A stretch of 64,000 nucleotides of DNA from Woeseiaceae bacterium (GTDB taxonomy: Bacteria; Pseudomonadota; Gammaproteobacteria; Steroidobacterales; Woeseiaceae): positions 1-64,000 of the forward strand of contig JASJBE010000007.1 in NCBI GenBank assembly GCA_030066655.1, given 5' to 3'. Shown in pieces: positions 25,426-33,662 of this stretch (its first letter is position 1; every line of letters starts with the position of its first letter). The position numbers were made by a program, and so were the translations under genes. The notes under the pieces were generated by a model. That model ran no database searches. It was not told where the DNA came from and saw nothing but the letters and a program-made list of their open reading frames with translations.

Positions 25426-27066
25426 ATGAAAAAAATGGCTTTTGCATCAGATCTGTTTCCGAGAATCCTGCTTCTGTTGTTGAGTGGCCTGTTGCTATCC
25501 GCGTGCTCCGGCGATGACGGGGCCGACGGTGCGGACGGACGAGACGGCGTTGACGGTCTCGCCGGCATCGCCTGCTGGGATCTTAACCAGAACGGCATCG
25601 GTGACCCGGAAGAAGACATCAACGGCGACGGCAATGTCGATGTCCAGGACTGCAACGCCACCGCCAGCGGTGCGTATGAAATCGAAAAACTGCACTCCGG
25701 CTACTTCACTGAAAAGGCCTATGAGGGTACGCAGTCCTGCCTCGATTGCCACGGTCTGCAAGGCGCCGACATGCTGATGAAGGCCCACTACACGTGGGAA
25801 GGCATCGCGTCGAATATCACTGGTTACGAGGGTGAGATCCACGGCAAGAACGACCTGATCAACAACTTCTGCATCGCCGTGCCGACCAACGAAGGCCGTT
25901 GCGCCCAGTGCCACGCCGGTTACGGGTATGACAACAGCAGCTACGCTTTCAACGACCCGAAAACCGTTGATTGCCTGATCTGCCACGACCAGACCAATAC
26001 CTACGTCAAAGGCAAGACGACGGGTGGTCTCCCGAACCCTGACGTCGACCTCGACGCCGTCGCAAGAAGTGTCGCGATGAACGACGGCGTGCCGCAGGTC
26101 AAGAACTGCATCGTCTGCCACGCAAACGCGGGCGGCGGCGACAACGTCAAGCACGGTGACCTCGCCATGGCGCTGCTGGACACGACGCGCGAATTCGATG
26201 TCCACATGGGCAGCGACGGGGCCAGCTTCAACTGCGTCGCTTGCCACCAGGCGAAGAAAGACGCGGATGGCGGTTTGATTGATCACGGCATGGGCGGCAT
26301 GGCGTACCACTCGACCGACGAAGGCGTCATGAAGTCCTGCGTCGACTGCCACGGCGACGTTGCCAGTATCCACGTCGGTAACCCGGTCGAACCCATCACC
26401 AGCACGCACCCGACGCTGGCCTGCCAGGTCTGCCACATCCCGACCTTCGCTCGCGATACGTCGACGAAGACCGAGTGGTACTGGTCAGATGCCGGCCAGA
26501 ACATCGACCCGATTCCGGTCGATCCTGACACGGGTCGTGCAACCTACGACAAGAAGAAAGGCACGTTCGTTTGGGAGAACAACGTTCGTCCGACGCTGCT
26601 GTACTTCGACGGCAAGTGGGATCGGCTGATGATCGGTACCAACGACCAGTACGTTGGCACGCCTCCGGTCAACCTCGCGAAACCATCCGCTGACTACACG
26701 ACGCCGGGTGCCATGATCTATCCGTTCAAGAAGATGGTCGGTAACCAGGTTGCGGACGCGAACAACAAGACGATGCTAGTGCCCCACCTGTTCGGTATGA
26801 AAGGTGGACCGAATCCCTATTGGGGCAAGTTCGATTGGGATCTCGCTATTCGTGACGGCGCCGCCACGACCGGCCAGACCTATTCCGGTGATTACGAGTT
26901 CGTAGACACCGAGATGTTCCTGACCGTCAACCACGAGGTTGCGCCGGCAGAGCAGGCCTACGGTAAAGACGGCGCCTGCGCCGACTGCCACCTCGACGGC
27001 CAGATCGACTGGGCCGCTCTCGGCTGGACCGGGGATCCCCTGCTTCTCGGAGGTGAGCGCCCCTAG
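25426..27066 (+). CDS. Octaheme c-type cytochrome lipoprotein, tetrathionate-reductase (OTR) family-like
   Basis: A 546-aa protein with GGGAGG upstream of the ATG. A lipoprotein signal ends LLLSAC (Cys27). Eight CxxCH heme motifs are present: CLDCH, CAQCH, CLICH, CIVCH, CVACH, CVDCH, CQVCH and, far downstream, CADCH. Seven cluster at about residues 105-340 and the eighth lies near 517, after a long heme-poor region, as in Shewanella OTR. That family reduces tetrathionate, nitrite and hydroxylamine in vitro. The start of the mature protein carries a short collagen-like GxD run and an EF-hand-like DLNQNGIGDPEED. No adjacent electron donor is encoded. A dissimilatory or detoxifying periplasmic reductase is the best reading. 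Confidence 0.85.
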   Translation: MKKMAFASDLFPRILLLLLSGLLLSACSGDDGADGADGRDGVDGLAGIACWDLNQNGIGDPEEDINGDGNVDVQDCNATASGAYEIEKLHSGYFTEKAYEGTQSCLDCHGLQGADMLMKAHYTWEGIASNITGYEGEIHGKNDLINNFCIAVPTNEGRCAQCHAGYGYDNSSYAFNDPKTVDCLICHDQTNTYVKGKTTGGLPNPDVDLDAVARSVAMNDGVPQVKNCIVCHANAGGGDNVKHGDLAMALLDTTREFDVHMGSDGASFNCVACHQAKKDADGGLIDHGMGGMAYHSTDEGVMKSCVDCHGDVASIHVGNPVEPITSTHPTLACQVCHIPTFARDTSTKTEWYWSDAGQNIDPIPVDPDTGRATYDKKKGTFVWENNVRPTLLYFDGKWDRLMIGTNDQYVGTPPVNLAKPSADYTTPGAMIYPFKKMVGNQVADANNKTMLVPHLFGMKGGPNPYWGKFDWDLAIRDGAATTGQTYSGDYEFVDTEMFLTVNHEVAPAEQAYGKDGACADCHLDGQIDWAALGWTGDPLLLGGERP

Positions 27067-27140: not shown

Positions 27141-28655
27141 TCAGGTCGCCAGCTTTTCGAGCATGGTCAGCGCCTCATCCTGCATCATTGGAAACTGCGG
27201 ATGCAGTACGTTGCGCGTCGCGGTTCGCGTAATCAGATCAACGGCTTTGTCCGTGTTGCCGAGTTCTGCCTCTGCAACGCCGCGCCAGTAGACGACGGCC
27301 GGATTGAACTGGTTGGCTTTGGACAGGTGCTTCGCGCCCAGTGCCATGTCGTCTTGTATCATCGCAAGAAAACCCTTTAACGCATGAATACGTCTTTTCT
27401 CGAAGGCGTTGCCCCGGGCTTCCGCGGCCGCGGTGTACTCGGCGGTCAGGTTGGCCGCTGTCTCGGTATCGTCGGCGACCATCGCGACGAGGGCCATCTT
27501 GTAGACGTGAGCTCTCTCCGCAGCGGCCTTCGCCGCGTCGTTGCTGTCCGATTGGTATCGATGGTCCAGTGCAAGGTCGAAATGCTCGGCAGCTCGCCCA
27601 GCGTCGCTTGCATGCACGTAGATGTCGCCCATGTACTCATGAATATTGCCGAGCGCCGCGTGGTTTCCTTCCTCGGTCGCGTTTGCGGCCATCGTCTCGC
27701 AGTTCCTGACGGCGGCCTCGTTGTCGCCGGCCATGATGTTAACGGTGGCTATGCGGAACAACGCCCCCTGTCGTTCGCTGAAGTTCCTGGCAATCGACAA
27801 CATCTGCTGAGCGGTAGCCATTGCCGCATCGCTCTTGCCCTGCAGAGACTGGGCAATAAGGATGCCCGTGTACGCTGACGGGAAGTTCGGTTCGATCGCG
27901 ATCGCCTTGCGATAGTTCTTTATGGCCCCGGTCAAGTCGCCCTGCTCGAGCAGCAGCTCCGCATAGGAGTCCAGCGGGTTCGCCTCGTTCGGCAGTGCCT
28001 CGACATAACTTTCGAACGCACCAGCGGCCGCCTCCAGATTATCTATCGAGCGAAACGCGTATCCCATCGCGTTATACGCGGGCGCGAACTTTGGATCCGC
28101 GGCAACGGCACGATTGTATTGTTCGATGGCCAGTTCAAAGTCCTGCTGACCGTTGAAGAAATTGCCGTAACGGAACAGGGAGCGCGGGTCATTGGGAAAC
28201 TTCCCGACCAGCTCCTCGAGTATCTCTTCCTGGAGCCCTGGATCGTTCGCCGCCTGGGCAAGCGCAGACTGGATCCAGAGTTGTTCCCCTTCGGTAACCT
28301 TGTCGGCGGTGTGTTCGGCTCGTTCAAGGGCGGCGAAGTACTCGCTGTTCGTGAGCGCCGTGAAGGCTACCATCAGGTGGCCCATCGCAAACTCGGGATC
28401 CGCTTCGACGGCGGCCTTGAACGCTGCGTTGGCGTCGGTGAAGTGAAGACCATCGAGCAGTTTCTGCCCCGATCTGTAGCGGGAGAGCGCCTCTTCGGAG
28501 CCCGTCGTTATCGCGATGGTCGTGTGTTGGCTGTCCTTTGCCGCCGGGTCGCCGGCGTGCTCAGCTTGTCTGGCCTGTTCGGTGCCCTGGCCACAGGCAG
28601 TGAGCATCAAGATGCTGGCGATCAGGAGTCCTCGTAGTGAAAGAACGTATCTCAT
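27141..28655 (-). CDS. TPR-repeat lipoprotein
   Basis: A 504-aa protein with GGGGGA upstream of its ATG and a lipobox MLTAC at about residue 21. Most of the mature chain is tetratricopeptide repeats, for example the segments with FRYGNFFNGQQDFELAIEQ (about 165), AYNAMGYAFRS (about 200) and YAELLLEQGDLTGAIKNYR (about 237), giving roughly nine helical hairpins. TPR lipoproteins act as scaffolds for protein complexes in the periplasm; some companions are secreted peptidases or protein kinases. No partner is linked here, so its role is open. Confidence 0.85.
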   Translation of the reverse strand: MRYVLSLRGLLIASILMLTACGQGTEQARQAEHAGDPAAKDSQHTTIAITTGSEEALSRYRSGQKLLDGLHFTDANAAFKAAVEADPEFAMGHLMVAFTALTNSEYFAALERAEHTADKVTEGEQLWIQSALAQAANDPGLQEEILEELVGKFPNDPRSLFRYGNFFNGQQDFELAIEQYNRAVAADPKFAPAYNAMGYAFRSIDNLEAAAGAFESYVEALPNEANPLDSYAELLLEQGDLTGAIKNYRKAIAIEPNFPSAYTGILIAQSLQGKSDAAMATAQQMLSIARNFSERQGALFRIATVNIMAGDNEAAVRNCETMAANATEEGNHAALGNIHEYMGDIYVHASDAGRAAEHFDLALDHRYQSDSNDAAKAAAERAHVYKMALVAMVADDTETAANLTAEYTAAAEARGNAFEKRRIHALKGFLAMIQDDMALGAKHLSKANQFNPAVVYWRGVAEAELGNTDKAVDLITRTATRNVLHPQFPMMQDEALTMLEKLAT

Positions 28656-28851: not shown

Positions 28852-28886
28852 TTGACTTCGTACGAAAGACTTCGTAGATTAAGGCC
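28852..28886 (+). promoter_or_regulatory. Leaderless promoter with palindromic operator candidate for blaI-like gene
   Basis: TTGACT (28852-28857), 17 bp, TAGATT (28875-28880). The expected transcription start falls on the A of the ATG at 28887, and no Shine-Dalgarno is present, so the mRNA is probably leaderless. The palindrome TTCGTACGAA (28857-28866) lies between the hexamers, and GACTTCGTA is directly repeated at 28854 and 28868. Both are candidate repressor contacts, and binding there would block the promoter. Confidence 0.6.
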
Positions 28887-29270
28887 ATGGTGCAGAAAGA
28901 CATACCGACCGCGACGGAGCTCGCGATTCTCCAGATTCTCTGGGCGTATGGTCCCCTGACGGTTAGGGAGGTTCATGAGCAGCTTTCCGCGACTGAGAGC
29001 CTGGGATACACAAGCGTCCTGAAGATGCTCCAGGTCATGCACAAGAAGGGGCTGGTAAAGCGCAACGAGGAGCATCGCAGTCACGTCTACCGTTCCGCGC
29101 GGCCCGCAGAGCAGACGCAACGAGGGCTTGTAAGAAACCTCGTGGACAGCGCGTTTGCCGGTTCGGCGTCCGATCTCGTCGTTCGCGCCCTGTCCTCGAA
29201 GAAGCTCTCGAAGGAAGAGGTCGAGAAGATCCGACGGCTGATTGAGGAAAAGGCGCAGGAGAGTGATTGA
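28887..29270 (+). CDS. BlaI/MecI/CopY-family transcriptional repressor
   Basis: A 127-aa winged-helix repressor (Penicillinase_R, PF03965). The helix-turn-helix spans about residues 8-60 (ATELAILQILWAYGPLTVREV; YTSVLKMLQVMHKKGLV) and the dimerisation helices follow to the end. In the BlaI family the repressor is cut by the BlaR1/MecR1 protease after wall damage. Here the downstream M56 gene overlaps by 8 bp, the classic operon order. The region between helices three and four could hold a cleavage site but none can be assigned. An autoregulatory operator overlaps the promoter. Confidence 0.93.
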   Translation: MVQKDIPTATELAILQILWAYGPLTVREVHEQLSATESLGYTSVLKMLQVMHKKGLVKRNEEHRSHVYRSARPAEQTQRGLVRNLVDSAFAGSASDLVVRALSSKKLSKEEVEKIRRLIEEKAQESD

Positions 29271-31119
29271 CGGTATTCCGACGCTCAGTGCGGCGCTCTT
29301 CCACGCGATTCTGCACAGCATCTGGCAGGGCTGCATTTTGGCGATCGCCTTCGCCGTCGTGTCGCCCCGATTGCGATCCTCGCATTCGCGCTACTTGCTG
29401 GCAATGTCACTGTTCCTGACAGCGCCAATCGCGTTCGTCGCGACTTTTATCCACGCACTGTCCCAGCTAGCGACTGTCGCCCAGCCGGTAAGCATGTCTG
29501 CCGGCCCACCGCTAGCGACGGTTTTCGCATCTGCATGGTGTATCGGCGCGATCTTCGTCGGGGGTCGTTTCTTCTTCGGCTGGATCTGGCTGCGTCTCGT
29601 CATCATTCGGCGATCGACCGCCGTACCGGCGTCGATTGAGCGACTTTTCGCTGCGACAAAAGAGGCTGTCGGCGTCTCGTGTCGAATCGGCCTGCGGGCG
29701 TCAAATTCAATCGTGTCACCAATGGCTACCGGGGTCATCAAGCCGATTGTGGTCTTACCCGCGTCAATGCTGAGCGGTACTCCACCAAACGTACTGACGG
29801 CTGTGTTCGTCCACGAGTTACTGCATCTAAGGCGCTTCGACCACATCGCCGTCTTCGTCCAGGCGGTGGGCGAAACACTGCTCTTCTACCACCCCGCCGT
29901 GCACTGGTTGTCTGCCGAATCAAGGCGCGCACGTGAATACCGATGTGACGATGAATCCATTCGCCACCTCGGCGACCGATATGACTATGCGAGAGCGTTG
30001 CTCTCGATAGAGGAATCTGCTGGTGACCGAATGGCACCGGCCCTGATGATGAACGGAGGCGAATTCATGAACCGAGTCGAACGAATCCTGGGTGGCGATA
30101 CGCGCAGCTCCAGTGCCCGGCCCCATTTTTCCGGCATGCTGGTCTTCGCTTGCGCCGCGCTGCTGACGTATTCGATGAGTTTTGGCAATGACGCGCGGAG
30201 GGATGGCATCGACGCCCACGCACAGCACACACTCACCATCTCCTGGCTGCCGCCGTCAGTGACGCAATGGCAGGGCATGATCGAGGGCGCAGCGGAGCGC
30301 CACAACGTGTCCGCGGACGTACTCGCGCTGATGCTGTTGGTCGAATCGCATGGCGAAGCGCTGGCGACGAGCTCCGGTGGTGCACGCGGTCTGATGCAGG
30401 TCATGCCGAAGACCGGAATGGCCATCGCCGAAGAGCGGGGGATAGCAGGCTTTGACACCGCACAGCTGTTTGATCCGGCGACCAACATCGATTTCGGTGC
30501 CTGGTACCTGGCGCAAATGATGGAGCGTTTTTCCGACCAACCGGGGCGTCTACACGAGCTCGCGATATCGGCCTATAACGCGGGCCCCGGACACGTCTCC
30601 GCGTATCTTTCCGGCACCACGTCGCTTCCCGACGAAACGGTCGGCTACAAGAACATGTTGCTGTCGATGCTCTCCGAAGCGGACAAGGACCGCTCTCTCG
30701 TACTCGAAGGCCGCAAAGCCGAATTGCGTGAACGTCTGTCCGACCTGATTGCGCCAGTCGAGGGACGCGTGTCGTCGAGGTTCGGTGACCAACACGGATC
30801 AAAGGCCGCACATAGGGGCGTCGACATCGTCGCTCCGCTCGGGGCCCCCGTCGTGGCGCCCGTCGGTGGTCATGTGCGATCGGTGGGTGTTGACGACAAG
30901 CGTGGCAAGTTCGTCACGGTTGCGCACCTGTACGGCGTTGAATCGCACTATTACCACCTCAGTGAGGTGTCGGTGAACGCCGGTGACCCGGTAAAGAGTG
31001 GTGAAACCCTGGGCGCCGTCGGCAACAGCGGTGCAAGCAGCGGACCGCACCTGCATTTCGAAATGCGTGAGTTCGGTCAGCCCGTTTCACCTGCGCTGTA
31101 CGGGCTCGTGCTTGAATAG
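29263..31119 (+). CDS. BlaR1-like M56 metalloprotease fused to lytic transglycosylase and M23 peptidase domains
   Basis: A 618-aa protein from GTG 29263 (GAGGAAAAGG upstream), overlapping the repressor stop; a TTG at 29242 is the alternative start. Residues about 1-290 are a BlaR1/MecR1-type M56 membrane protease with zinc motif HELLH (184-188) and RCDDES, and a further TM at about 292-308. The periplasmic part carries a lytic transglycosylase domain (about 340-455: catalytic Glu361 in LLVESHG, then GGARGLMQVMP, AYNAGPG) and a LytM/M23 endopeptidase (about 500-605: HRGVDI at 517, HLHFEM at 596). The penicillin-binding sensor of BlaR1 is absent. It probably senses and cuts peptidoglycan and controls the partner repressor, which is inference. 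Confidence 0.9.
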   Translation: MIDGIPTLSAALFHAILHSIWQGCILAIAFAVVSPRLRSSHSRYLLAMSLFLTAPIAFVATFIHALSQLATVAQPVSMSAGPPLATVFASAWCIGAIFVGGRFFFGWIWLRLVIIRRSTAVPASIERLFAATKEAVGVSCRIGLRASNSIVSPMATGVIKPIVVLPASMLSGTPPNVLTAVFVHELLHLRRFDHIAVFVQAVGETLLFYHPAVHWLSAESRRAREYRCDDESIRHLGDRYDYARALLSIEESAGDRMAPALMMNGGEFMNRVERILGGDTRSSSARPHFSGMLVFACAALLTYSMSFGNDARRDGIDAHAQHTLTISWLPPSVTQWQGMIEGAAERHNVSADVLALMLLVESHGEALATSSGGARGLMQVMPKTGMAIAEERGIAGFDTAQLFDPATNIDFGAWYLAQMMERFSDQPGRLHELAISAYNAGPGHVSAYLSGTTSLPDETVGYKNMLLSMLSEADKDRSLVLEGRKAELRERLSDLIAPVEGRVSSRFGDQHGSKAAHRGVDIVAPLGAPVVAPVGGHVRSVGVDDKRGKFVTVAHLYGVESHYYHLSEVSVNAGDPVKSGETLGAVGNSGASSGPHLHFEMREFGQPVSPALYGLVLE

Positions 31120-31336: not shown

Positions 31337-32128
31337 ATGAAAACACTGAAGAATATCTGGCTGGCGCTGGCCGCAATCAGCCTGTCAGCACCGGCACTGG
31401 CCGGACATGGTAGCGATAAGGACATCGTGGATACGGCAGCCGATGCCGGCACGTTCAACACGCTGATCGCCGCAGCGAAGGCAGCCGGCCTCGCTGGCGC
31501 ACTGAAGGGCGACGGTCCGCTGACCGTATTCGCTCCGACCGACGATGCGTTTAGCGCGCTGCCCGCCGGCACCATCGAGACGCTCCTAAAGCCCGAAAAC
31601 AAGGACCAGCTGGCAACGATCCTGAAGTATCACGTCGTCGCCGGTAACCTCGGCTCCGAAGTGCTGGCCGATGGCGCTCGCCTCGACACGCTGGCCGGTA
31701 TCGATGCCGTGATCAGCCAGACCGAAGGCGGCTTCAACATCGAGAACGCACGTATCGTCGCGACCGACATCGACGCAAGCAACGGTGTCGTGCACGTCAT
31801 CGACCGTGTGATCCTGCCGCCGCAGCAGATGTCCCGGGCCGATTCCGCAAAGGCGATCGAGCGTGCCATCGACCGCGGTGTGCCGATGTTCAACCACGGC
31901 AACCCGGCGGGCACCGCGGCGATCTACAAGTCCGTATCGGAGCAGCTGATTCGCTCCGGTGGCTTGAATGCTGAAGAGCGTGCACGCCTCGAGATGGGCC
32001 TCGTCGAAGCGGCAGAGGCCCGCAATGCCAATGCAAGCGCCTGGCAGCTGCGTTATGCACTCGACGACGTGAATGCATCACTGCACAACAACGGACGCAT
32101 GATGGTCCGCACGAGCATGAGTCGCTAG
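31337..32128 (+). CDS. Exported fasciclin-domain protein
   Basis: A 263-aa protein with a Sec signal ending ALAGHG (about residue 23). Residues about 28-163 are a complete fasciclin (FAS1) domain with TVFAPTDDAF (about 67) and the conserved tail NGVVHVIDRVILP (about 155). The rest is an alanine-rich helical extension without a recognised family. FAS1 domains mediate adhesion or bind cell-surface ligands. The ECF sigma and anti-sigma genes follow after an inverted repeat, the common arrangement in which fasciclin genes are sigma-factor targets. Confidence 0.9.
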   Translation: MKTLKNIWLALAAISLSAPALAGHGSDKDIVDTAADAGTFNTLIAAAKAAGLAGALKGDGPLTVFAPTDDAFSALPAGTIETLLKPENKDQLATILKYHVVAGNLGSEVLADGARLDTLAGIDAVISQTEGGFNIENARIVATDIDASNGVVHVIDRVILPPQQMSRADSAKAIERAIDRGVPMFNHGNPAGTAAIYKSVSEQLIRSGGLNAEERARLEMGLVEAAEARNANASAWQLRYALDDVNASLHNNGRMMVRTSMSR

Positions 32129-32136
32129 GCTGGCCC

Positions 32137-32298
32137 GAGCATCTCACCGATTTCGTGGGCTCTCGCTAGCCCGTTGTCTGCACGGGGAATTTTCCTCAAT
32201 CGGAAATACACCAGGGTATTCCGCTCAATCGGAAAACCCCTTGTGCAGACAACGTTCTGACCGATCTTACCCACGAATCGGCGAGATGTTCGAGCTAG
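32137..32298. repeat. Long nested imperfect inverted repeat
   Basis: About 160 bp forming an imperfect cruciform. The outer arms pair CATCTCACCGATTTCGTGGG (32140-32159) with the inverse of CCCACGAATCGGCGAGATG (32270-32288). The middle arms are CGTTGTCTGCAC (32172-32183) with GTGCAGACAACG (32243-32254), and the core is GGAAATAC / GTATTCC. The core also has a direct repeat CTCAATCGGAAA at 32195 and 32224. It lies between the fasciclin and sigma genes; it could be a terminator-like RNA structure, a MITE remnant or an operator. Confidence 0.8.
32231..32256 (+). promoter_or_regulatory. Putative ECF-type promoter of the sigma gene
   Basis: GGAAAA (32231-32236), 16 bp, CGTT (32253-32256) matches the general ECF pattern (GGAAC, 16-17 bp, CGTT). 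It sits in the right arm of the inverted repeat, about 85 bp before the sigma gene, so autoregulation is likely. Confidence 0.5.
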
Positions 32299-32343
32299 AA
32301 TGCACCGGGCCGGCAACGGCCCGAACCTACTCGAGCGAATAAC

Positions 32344-32901
32344 GTGTCTCAAACTCTTCTCGAACGCATCGCAGGCGGCGACCGTAAAGCGGTCGCCGAC
32401 TGCATCGACACCTACAGCGGACTCGTCTGGTCTCTGGCCCGGCGATTTCTCGCGAACGATGCCGATGCGGAGGAGGCCGTGCAGGAAATCTTCATGGAGA
32501 TCTGGTCGACGGCCGGGCGCTTCGACGCAGCCGTCGCCGGCGAGGCGACGTTCATCTCGATGATTGCGCGCCGCCGGCTGATCGATCGTCGACGCAAGCT
32601 GGATCGGGAGCCGGCAAGCGAACCCATCGACGAGGTGCAGCACGCGCTTTCCGATGACGGGGAGAAGGTTCTCGAAGCATCCGCCGAGACGCAGCGCGTC
32701 GTTGACGTGATCCGGACGCTGAAACCGGAGCAGCAGGAAGTCATCCGCTTGTCGTCCTGGCTCGGCATGAGTCACGGCGCGATCGCCCGCGAGACAGGGA
32801 TACCGCTAGGGACGGTAAAGAGCTACATGAAACGGGGATTAAACACGATTCGCAAGACACTCGGTGAGACCGAGCCGTCTGCGGACAAGGCAATACGATG
32901 A
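32344..32901 (+). CDS. ECF RNA polymerase sigma factor
   Basis: A 185-aa ECF sigma-70 factor starting at GTG 32344. Region 2 (about residues 15-85) contains YSGLVWSLARRFLANDADAEE and AVQEIFMEIW; region 4 (about 118-170) contains LKPEQQEVIRLSSWLGMSHGAIA and GTVKSYMKRGL, the recognition helix. It overlaps the anti-sigma gene by ATGA, so the pair is translationally coupled. It most likely reads the GGAAAA/CGTT promoter in its own leader and controls the fasciclin gene and distant targets. Confidence 0.93.
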   Translation: MSQTLLERIAGGDRKAVADCIDTYSGLVWSLARRFLANDADAEEAVQEIFMEIWSTAGRFDAAVAGEATFISMIARRRLIDRRRKLDREPASEPIDEVQHALSDDGEKVLEASAETQRVVDVIRTLKPEQQEVIRLSSWLGMSHGAIARETGIPLGTVKSYMKRGLNTIRKTLGETEPSADKAIR

Positions 32902-33662
32902 ACGATATACATCCAGACATCGTCGATCTGCTGGTTCTGAGGGCCACAGAGGGGATAAGCGACGAGCAACAGGCCGAACTCGACGCCCTGCTTGAGCAGC
33001 ACGGTCTCGAGGATACGCTCGAACTCGATCTCGCAGCAGCGGCCGCCGCCAACGCGTTTGCGCTGCAGGACACCCGGGATCCCGCCGAGGCGCCCGAGCA
33101 CCTGCGTGCAAAACTGAGCAGCGATGCCGATGCCTATTTCGGCCGAACGGGTAGCAACGTCGTTCAATTCTCAGGGCGGCCCGTCTCGAACTACCTGGGC
33201 TGGGCGGCAGCGGCGATGCTCGCGATTGCGCTGCTGTTCACCTACGACACGGGAACGGAGGACCCCATGAGTCCCGCGGAGGCCAGGGAGTGGATGCTGG
33301 CCAACGTGGACGGCACCGACGTTATCCCATGGGCAGTGCCGGACGACCCGGCCTACGCGCAGGTCGACGGCAACGTCGTCTGGAATGACGATCGGCAGGA
33401 AGGTTACATGCTGCTGACGAATATGCCGGCCAACGATCCGGCGACGTCGCAGTACCAGCTGTGGATCGTCGACCCGGATCGGGACGCCAACCCGGTGGAC
33501 GGTGGTGTGTTCGACATCCCGCCGGGCGCAGACCGGGTGGTCGTGCCAATCGACGTCAAACTGGCCGTGTCACGCCCGGTGGCCTTCGCCATCACCCGTG
33601 AGCAGCCGGGCGGCGTCGTCGTCTCGGAAGGCCCGCTGCTGGTAGTCGCCAGCGCAAGCTGA
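32898..33662 (+). CDS. RskA-like membrane anti-sigma factor
   Basis: A 254-aa protein with one TM (about 100-116, LGWAAAAMLAIALLF). The cytoplasmic N-terminus (about 1-95) should bind the sigma factor. The periplasmic part (about 118-250) is an RskA C-terminal (PF10099) beta domain with YMLLTNMPANDPATSQYQLWIVD and GGVFDIPPG. The zinc-binding HxxxCxxC of ZAS anti-sigmas is absent, so it is not a redox ZAS type. It probably senses an envelope signal and releases the sigma factor by regulated proteolysis, which is family knowledge. Confidence 0.87.
   Translation: MNDIHPDIVDLLVLRATEGISDEQQAELDALLEQHGLEDTLELDLAAAAAANAFALQDTRDPAEAPEHLRAKLSSDADAYFGRTGSNVVQFSGRPVSNYLGWAAAAMLAIALLFTYDTGTEDPMSPAEAREWMLANVDGTDVIPWAVPDDPAYAQVDGNVVWNDDRQEGYMLLTNMPANDPATSQYQLWIVDPDRDANPVDGGVFDIPPGADRVVVPIDVKLAVSRPVAFAITREQPGGVVVSEGPLLVVASAS

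Follow-up and report, generated by a model that had tools for sequence, protein, structure and literature searches.

BlaR1-type membrane proteases are, to our knowledge, known almost solely as antibiotic sensors. The locus described here, in a 64,000-nucleotide stretch of DNA from a Woeseiaceae bacterium (contig JASJBE010000007.1; below, the window), raises the question of what such a protease and its BlaI partner regulate when two peptidoglycan-cutting enzymes stand in the place of the penicillin sensor. A preliminary description of the sequence had proposed that one polypeptide may both cut the wall and report its state to the repressor. The features of the locus are the following.

28852-28880, + strand: sigma-70-like promoter, -35 TTGACT, 17-nt spacer, -10 TAGATT (pattern scan)
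28861-28876, + strand: putative BlaI operator TACGAAAGACTTCGTA (consensus TACGAANNNNTTCGTA, TACGAA-N4-TTCGTA), the sole exact match in the genome
28887-29270, + strand: blaI, 127-aa repressor of the BlaI/MecI family (PF03965, 98 bits over 114 residues)
29263-31119, + strand: fused gene M56-SLT-M23/LytM, 618 aa, one uninterrupted ORF with three Pfam domains
29263-30132, + strand: M56 (BlaR1-type) part, residues 1-290 (PF05569, 101 bits; fold match 8exs)
30127-30195, + strand: TM4, about residues 289-311, predicted linker between a cytoplasmic protease and exported hydrolases (hydropathy; model helix 290-311)
30253-30675, + strand: SLT lytic transglycosylase, residues 331-471, with E361, GLMQVMP 376-382 and AYNAGPG 437-443 (PF01464, 82 bits)
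30730-31116, + strand: M23/LytM endopeptidase, residues 490-618, with H517, D521, H565, H596 and H598 (PF01551, 97 bits)

Architecture of the operon

The operon in the window consists of two genes on the + strand, blaI and then the fused gene. The best start of the fused gene is GTG 29263 (stop at 31119), giving an 8-nt overlap with blaI; the listed ORF opens at TTG 29242, and the orthologue from a second Woeseiaceae genome (L044) has ATG at the position equivalent to 29263. A start-codon artefact was rejected, the orthologue and isolate genomes sharing the frame. Pfam detected Peptidase_M56 at residues 20-258 (101 bits), SLT at 339-455 (82 bits) and Peptidase_M23 at 516-610 (97 bits), all well above the cut-offs, and none of the NCBIfam models passed its cut-off on the fused protein (blaR1_generic, 70 bits versus 400). 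The domain reading of the preliminary description was confirmed in its main parts: BlaI lies beside an M56 protein with HELLH (residues 184-188), and a lytic transglycosylase is followed by a complete LytM domain (HRGVD 517-521, HLHF 596-599), both C-terminal to M56 and TM4 in the same chain, where a penicillin sensor would be expected. Comparison of the window with L044 gave dN/dS of 0.17 for M56, 0.065 for SLT, 0.086 for M23 and 0.12 overall, so all three domains are under purifying selection, the hydrolases most.

Genes for a multihaem cytochrome (Cytochrome_cB) and a TPR lipoprotein (window 25426-27066 and 27141-28655) flank blaI; at the L044 locus the TPR gene is apparently found on the opposite flank of the cytochrome gene, and the region upstream of blaI is rearranged relative to the window. 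The operon is followed, from 217 nt 3' of its end, by genes for fasciclin, a factor of the sigma-70 family (ECF-like) and an anti-sigma factor of the RskA type, in this order (window 31337-33662); they are retained downstream in L044.

The protease residues of BlaR1 have been defined as H201ExxH, E242xxxD, D210, Y261 and R294 (PMC9834060). The zinc and catalytic residues of the fused protein, H184, E185, H188 and E225, together with D193, D229, Y242 and R271, match this set, R271 being equivalent to R294 by position only, and all eight are the same in each of the 15 aligned members. The AlphaFold model was matched to S. aureus BlaR1 (8exs_A) over 246 residues of its N-terminal part with Z 19.1 and rmsd 4.1; its mean pLDDT is 81 and its pTM 0.46, and the placement of the domains is therefore untrustworthy. 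Since the residues that define BlaR1 are invariant, the M56 protease is probably active, and the earlier reading of an intact BlaR1-type protease stands.

Four hydrophobic helices were detected. The TM1-TM2 loop is basic and the TM2-TM3 loop uncharged, and TM4 immediately precedes the SLT domain. The helices and loop charges are consistent with a predicted topology having the protease inside and the hydrolases outside, and would fit the N-out, C-out arrangement of the four TM helices of BlaR1, TM4 and the linker being modelled at low confidence. The TM2-TM3 loop has about 11-13 residues, versus 41 in the extracellular loop EL1 of BlaR1 (residues 56-96), which participates in signalling (PMC9834060), so that the BlaR1 signalling path is not simply transferable.

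The SLT part of the model is similar in fold to MltC, MltE and Slt (Z 17-19.5), and the M23 part to StM23 (Z 20.4) and the LytM domain of EnvC (Z about 20). Both active sites are intact, as had been proposed. E361, the transglycosylase Glu, is invariant in the 15 members, the GLMQ and AYN motifs are present, and so are all residues of the LytM HxxxD, YxH and HxH motifs, with H517, D521, H565, H596 and H598 presumably in the roles known from LytM. In the Polyangium-type member L077 (L077:1501-3444, minus strand), which has intact SLT and M56, Gly replaces the M23 His of YxHL; this copy may have lost endopeptidase activity, and M23 activity may not be retained in every member.

The core of the fused protein belongs to the BlaR1 family, but the protein is not a penicillin receptor, since the defining sensor domain is absent. 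The locus resembles BlaR1-BlaI and MecR1-MecI of S. aureus and B. licheniformis in having a BlaI-family repressor beside an M56 protease with the full catalytic set, a BlaR1 fold over 246 residues, a C-terminal domain that follows TM4 and is predicted here to be extra-cytoplasmic, and a probably autoregulated operon. Unlike BlaR1 and MecR1, the protein has SLT (and M23) instead of the penicillin-binding sensor, no Pfam family of the transpeptidase type was detected in it, no beta-lactamase or PBP gene is linked to the locus, and the sole putative operator in the genome is its own. Within the phylum the nearest M56 proteins are the gammaproteobacterial M56-TonB_C-like ones (L010-L012 and others), which share the BlaI branch and the gene order but have a TonB-like or other C-terminus and no hydrolase, according to the sequences read by eye.

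In a review of M23 peptidases, M56 is among the catalytic partner domains that together total <1% of M23 hits (PMC9662197). Those M56-M23 proteins carry both domains in one chain, as here, and for them we found in that paper neither an SLT domain nor linkage to BlaI, and no operator or mechanism. In the open-access literature we found no account of the M56-SLT fusion, of its coupling to BlaI or of a dedicated operator.

The repressor, its promoter and its putative operator

The blaI gene is the sole PF03965 member in the window genome (G000), and G485, the genome of L044, likewise has a single BlaI. The 114 residues covered by PF03965 include the winged helix and the C-terminal dimerisation part, and the PDB matches are MecI and BlaI. 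S. aureus BlaI is cleaved by BlaR1 at N101-F102, with Phe at P1'. Unlike it, the window BlaI has no Phe at this position, the aligned residue being Ala (Arg-Ala-Leu), and the P1' Phe is also absent in L010, L011, L039, L040, L042, L050, L064 and the fused set (RAL, QAL, HAL or HVL), which suggests that in this Phe-less Gram-negative BlaI branch a different scissile bond is used, or that no cleavage takes place.

The pattern scan that detected the promoter gave one site versus 0.9 expected by chance and is weak alone; both L044 and the Polyangium loci share the promoter position and TTGAC(A/T) 5' of blaI. With 6 nt between the end of the -10 hexamer (28880) and the blaI start codon, the transcript may be nearly leaderless.

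The putative operator sits between -35 and -10, inside the promoter. Exact TACGAA-N4-TTCGTA occurs once per genome in 8/8 genomes, always at the promoter of the blaI-M56 operon; the set comprised two Woeseiaceae and six Polyangium-type genomes of 3.6-13.4 Mb, all drafts (G000 is 91% complete), and the reversed control pattern gave 0 matches. The preliminary description had pointed to TTCGTACGAA as the regulon site. This sequence is present in both Woeseiaceae promoters and not in those of Polyangium; it was rejected as the operator, being merely part of the regulatory sequence, and replaced by the conserved TACGAAN4TTCGTA. A wider BlaI regulon was also rejected: additional one-mismatch sites numbered 3 (G000) and 1 (G485) versus 2 and 2 for the control, and those placed are mostly within long ORFs, none being common to both genomes.

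The same type of operator is found in some BlaI-M56 loci without SLT (L011, L064), so that TACGAA-N4-TTCGTA is the putative operator of this BlaI branch and not an invention of the fusion. We infer that BlaI binds this site. The only target with a perfect site would be the operon itself, and the regulated output would be the hydrolase; with the operator nowhere else in the genome, the switch would control its own hydrolase and not a regulon.

Distribution and origin of the fusion

A scan of about 85,000 genomes detected the orthologue L044 (genome G485, Woeseiaceae MAG MO_167.B29; 79-80%, with the same blaI overlap) and four Polyangium genomes carrying the whole M56-SLT-M23 order at 34%. Further members were obtained from searches of Myxococcota (379 genomes) and of the order of Polyangium (184 genomes). 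The M56-SLT-M23 proteins number nine (the window protein, L044, L045-L048, L076, L077 and L145), and seven have M56-SLT without M23 (L049, L078-L081, L083 and L087); in Myxococcota, 7 genomes have all three domains and 7 have M56-SLT only. One of the M56-SLT members, G716:C37 (L086, L087), includes a match piece, L086, reported with an internal TAA.

As to whether BlaI always accompanies the fusion, it lies directly 5' of the fused gene in 16/16 members, mostly overlapping by a few bases. Two of the 107 Woeseiaceae genomes carry the fused gene, and it was detected in no other genome among 369 sampled from the class and 398 from the phylum, the latter searched by profile. A plasmid search returned no record covering 80% of the query, and among the matches listed only the SLT-M23 half was matched.

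In the SLT tree the window protein groups with L145, a three-domain protein from myxobacteria (96/83), in a subclade (100/99) whose other sampled members are myxobacterial. This grouping and the patchy distribution among Woeseiaceae favour transfer and suggest that the Woeseiaceae fusion was acquired from Myxococcota. A recent mobile element was rejected, as no tRNA was detected at 15000-45000 and the GC content is ordinary; given this GC content, the transfer was probably not very recent.

The trees leave a single M56-SLT fusion event unproven. A single fused clade is not rejected by the M56 tree (p-AU 0.53), which does not resolve an independent Woeseiaceae origin either. The SLT tree gives one fused clade (100/98) when stand-alone lipoproteins are left out; when added, the stand-alone myxobacterial lipoproteins fall among the fused SLT domains, with p-AU 0.24 for one fused clade. 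A single origin of the M23 addition is neither shown nor rejected (support 69/40).

A proposed murein-hydrolase switch and competing explanations

We suggest, with somewhat better than even confidence, that the operon works as an autoregulated, self-contained switch of the BlaI/BlaR1 type whose regulated output is the murein hydrolase. BlaI on one operator within the promoter of its own operon would keep expression low; the cytoplasmic M56 protease would inactivate BlaI, as BlaR1 does; and the exported C-terminal half would cut the wall, its lytic transglycosylase acting on glycan strands and its LytM endopeptidase on peptide cross-links. With a single genomic operator, derepression would yield only more of the same protein, the wall cutting being the output and the protein its own antirepressor. 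The likeliest trigger would be altered peptidoglycan that the C-terminal half encounters or produces, signalled either through binding or strain on the exported hydrolases relayed via TM4, by analogy with BlaR1, or through wall fragments released by the hydrolases and acting on BlaI. The inactivation of BlaI by M56, the export of the C-terminal half and the trigger are what we infer. Against the proposed switch stand the missing P1' Phe, the short TM2-TM3 loop, the myxobacterial lipobox (see below) and the low-confidence TM4 and linker.

In B. licheniformis, BlaI is released from its operator by gamma-D-Glu-mDAP, and a wall hydrolase supplying this fragment has been put forward as the missing blaR2 factor (PMC3305447). 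This documented binding of fragments to BlaI in Bacillus also suits the main rival, in which the hydrolase is output only: M56 would be triggered otherwise, by membrane state or by cytoplasmic fragments on BlaI, and the fusion would tether the enzyme and tie its dose to the antirepressor. The restriction of the operator to the operon agrees with such an arrangement, and the other M56 relatives bear quite different C-termini, so the M56/BlaI core works without hydrolases. We consider it a real possibility, short of probable, since the C-terminal domain of BlaR1 in the equivalent position is the sensor (PMC9834060) and SLT is kept in 16/16 members under the strongest constraint of the three domains. 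That the hydrolases act as the sensor is plausible and unproven. The extended form of our proposal, a closed-loop rheostat with enzyme, sensor and antirepressor in one protein, reading the peptidoglycan through its own hydrolase domains and setting its own amount via one repressor and one operator, and with further gating by lipoprotein processing in myxobacteria, is put forward tentatively.

A rather unlikely explanation is that TM4 is an internal signal sequence and that the chain is split after it, giving in myxobacteria a separate lipoprotein transglycosylase (signal peptidase II) and leaving M56 as the antirepressor, so that release and not contact would matter. A lipobox-like [LVSAI]-X-A-C ends TM4 in 13/14 myxobacterial fused members (12/13 by scan, plus L145 read by eye; L079 is without it), in the variants LAAC, VPAC, SPAC, AWAC and IAAC. 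The M56 proteins without SLT that were scorable by the lipobox scan have none at the TM4 end, the one match being within TM4. The stand-alone SLT relatives of the same subclade are apparent lipoproteins sharing a WLPP-like lead-in, and they are unfused to M56, with the lipobox before the lead-in. Such free myxobacterial SLT proteins, with lipobox and WLPP-like motif, are L147:612-1265, L150:1357-2229 and, on the minus strand, L146 and L148; these four are probably related to the protein from which the fused SLT domain came. With these kin and the TM4-end lipobox, the fusion looks as if M56 had been joined to a lipoprotein transglycosylase whose signal sequence now serves as TM4. In S. aureus the sensor of BlaR1 is shed by the signal peptidase SpsB, which cuts at the equivalent linker (PMC9834060), a precedent for a cut after TM4. 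The myxobacterial hydrolase half may thus be cut free and lipidated, and the proposal that one polypeptide cuts and reports may not hold for the myxobacterial members. The split chain is opposed by the Woeseiaceae pair (the window protein and L044), which have no lipobox by scan and no conserved signal-peptidase-I-like site by inspection, and by the near-identity of the six Polyangium-type copies, which reduces the independent lineages to about 9.

It is very unlikely that the fusion is fortuitous, with constitutive hydrolases and an M56 that is unlinked or dead. The Gly for His in YxHL of L077 speaks for it, as conservation of M23 activity may be less than strict; yet the protease residues are invariant, the operator is conserved, the order is conserved in two phyla with BlaI always adjacent, and both halves are under strong purifying selection. 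The joining of separate genes by gene prediction, frameshift or assembly artefact, a concern in a fragmented draft of 167 contigs and one raised by the preliminary description, is refuted by the same three-domain order and frame in the independent orthologue (L044/G485) and the Polyangium isolate genomes.

The proposed switch bears on autolysin control, that is, on how bacteria hold dangerous autolysins at a safe level: cutters of glycan and peptide take the place of the antibiotic sensor, and the output would be wired back to the cutter alone. It is also relevant to the proposed response of BlaI to wall fragments (PMC3305447). Taken together, the two genes and one operator may provide a minimal system for testing peptidoglycan sensing via a repressor-inactivating protease.
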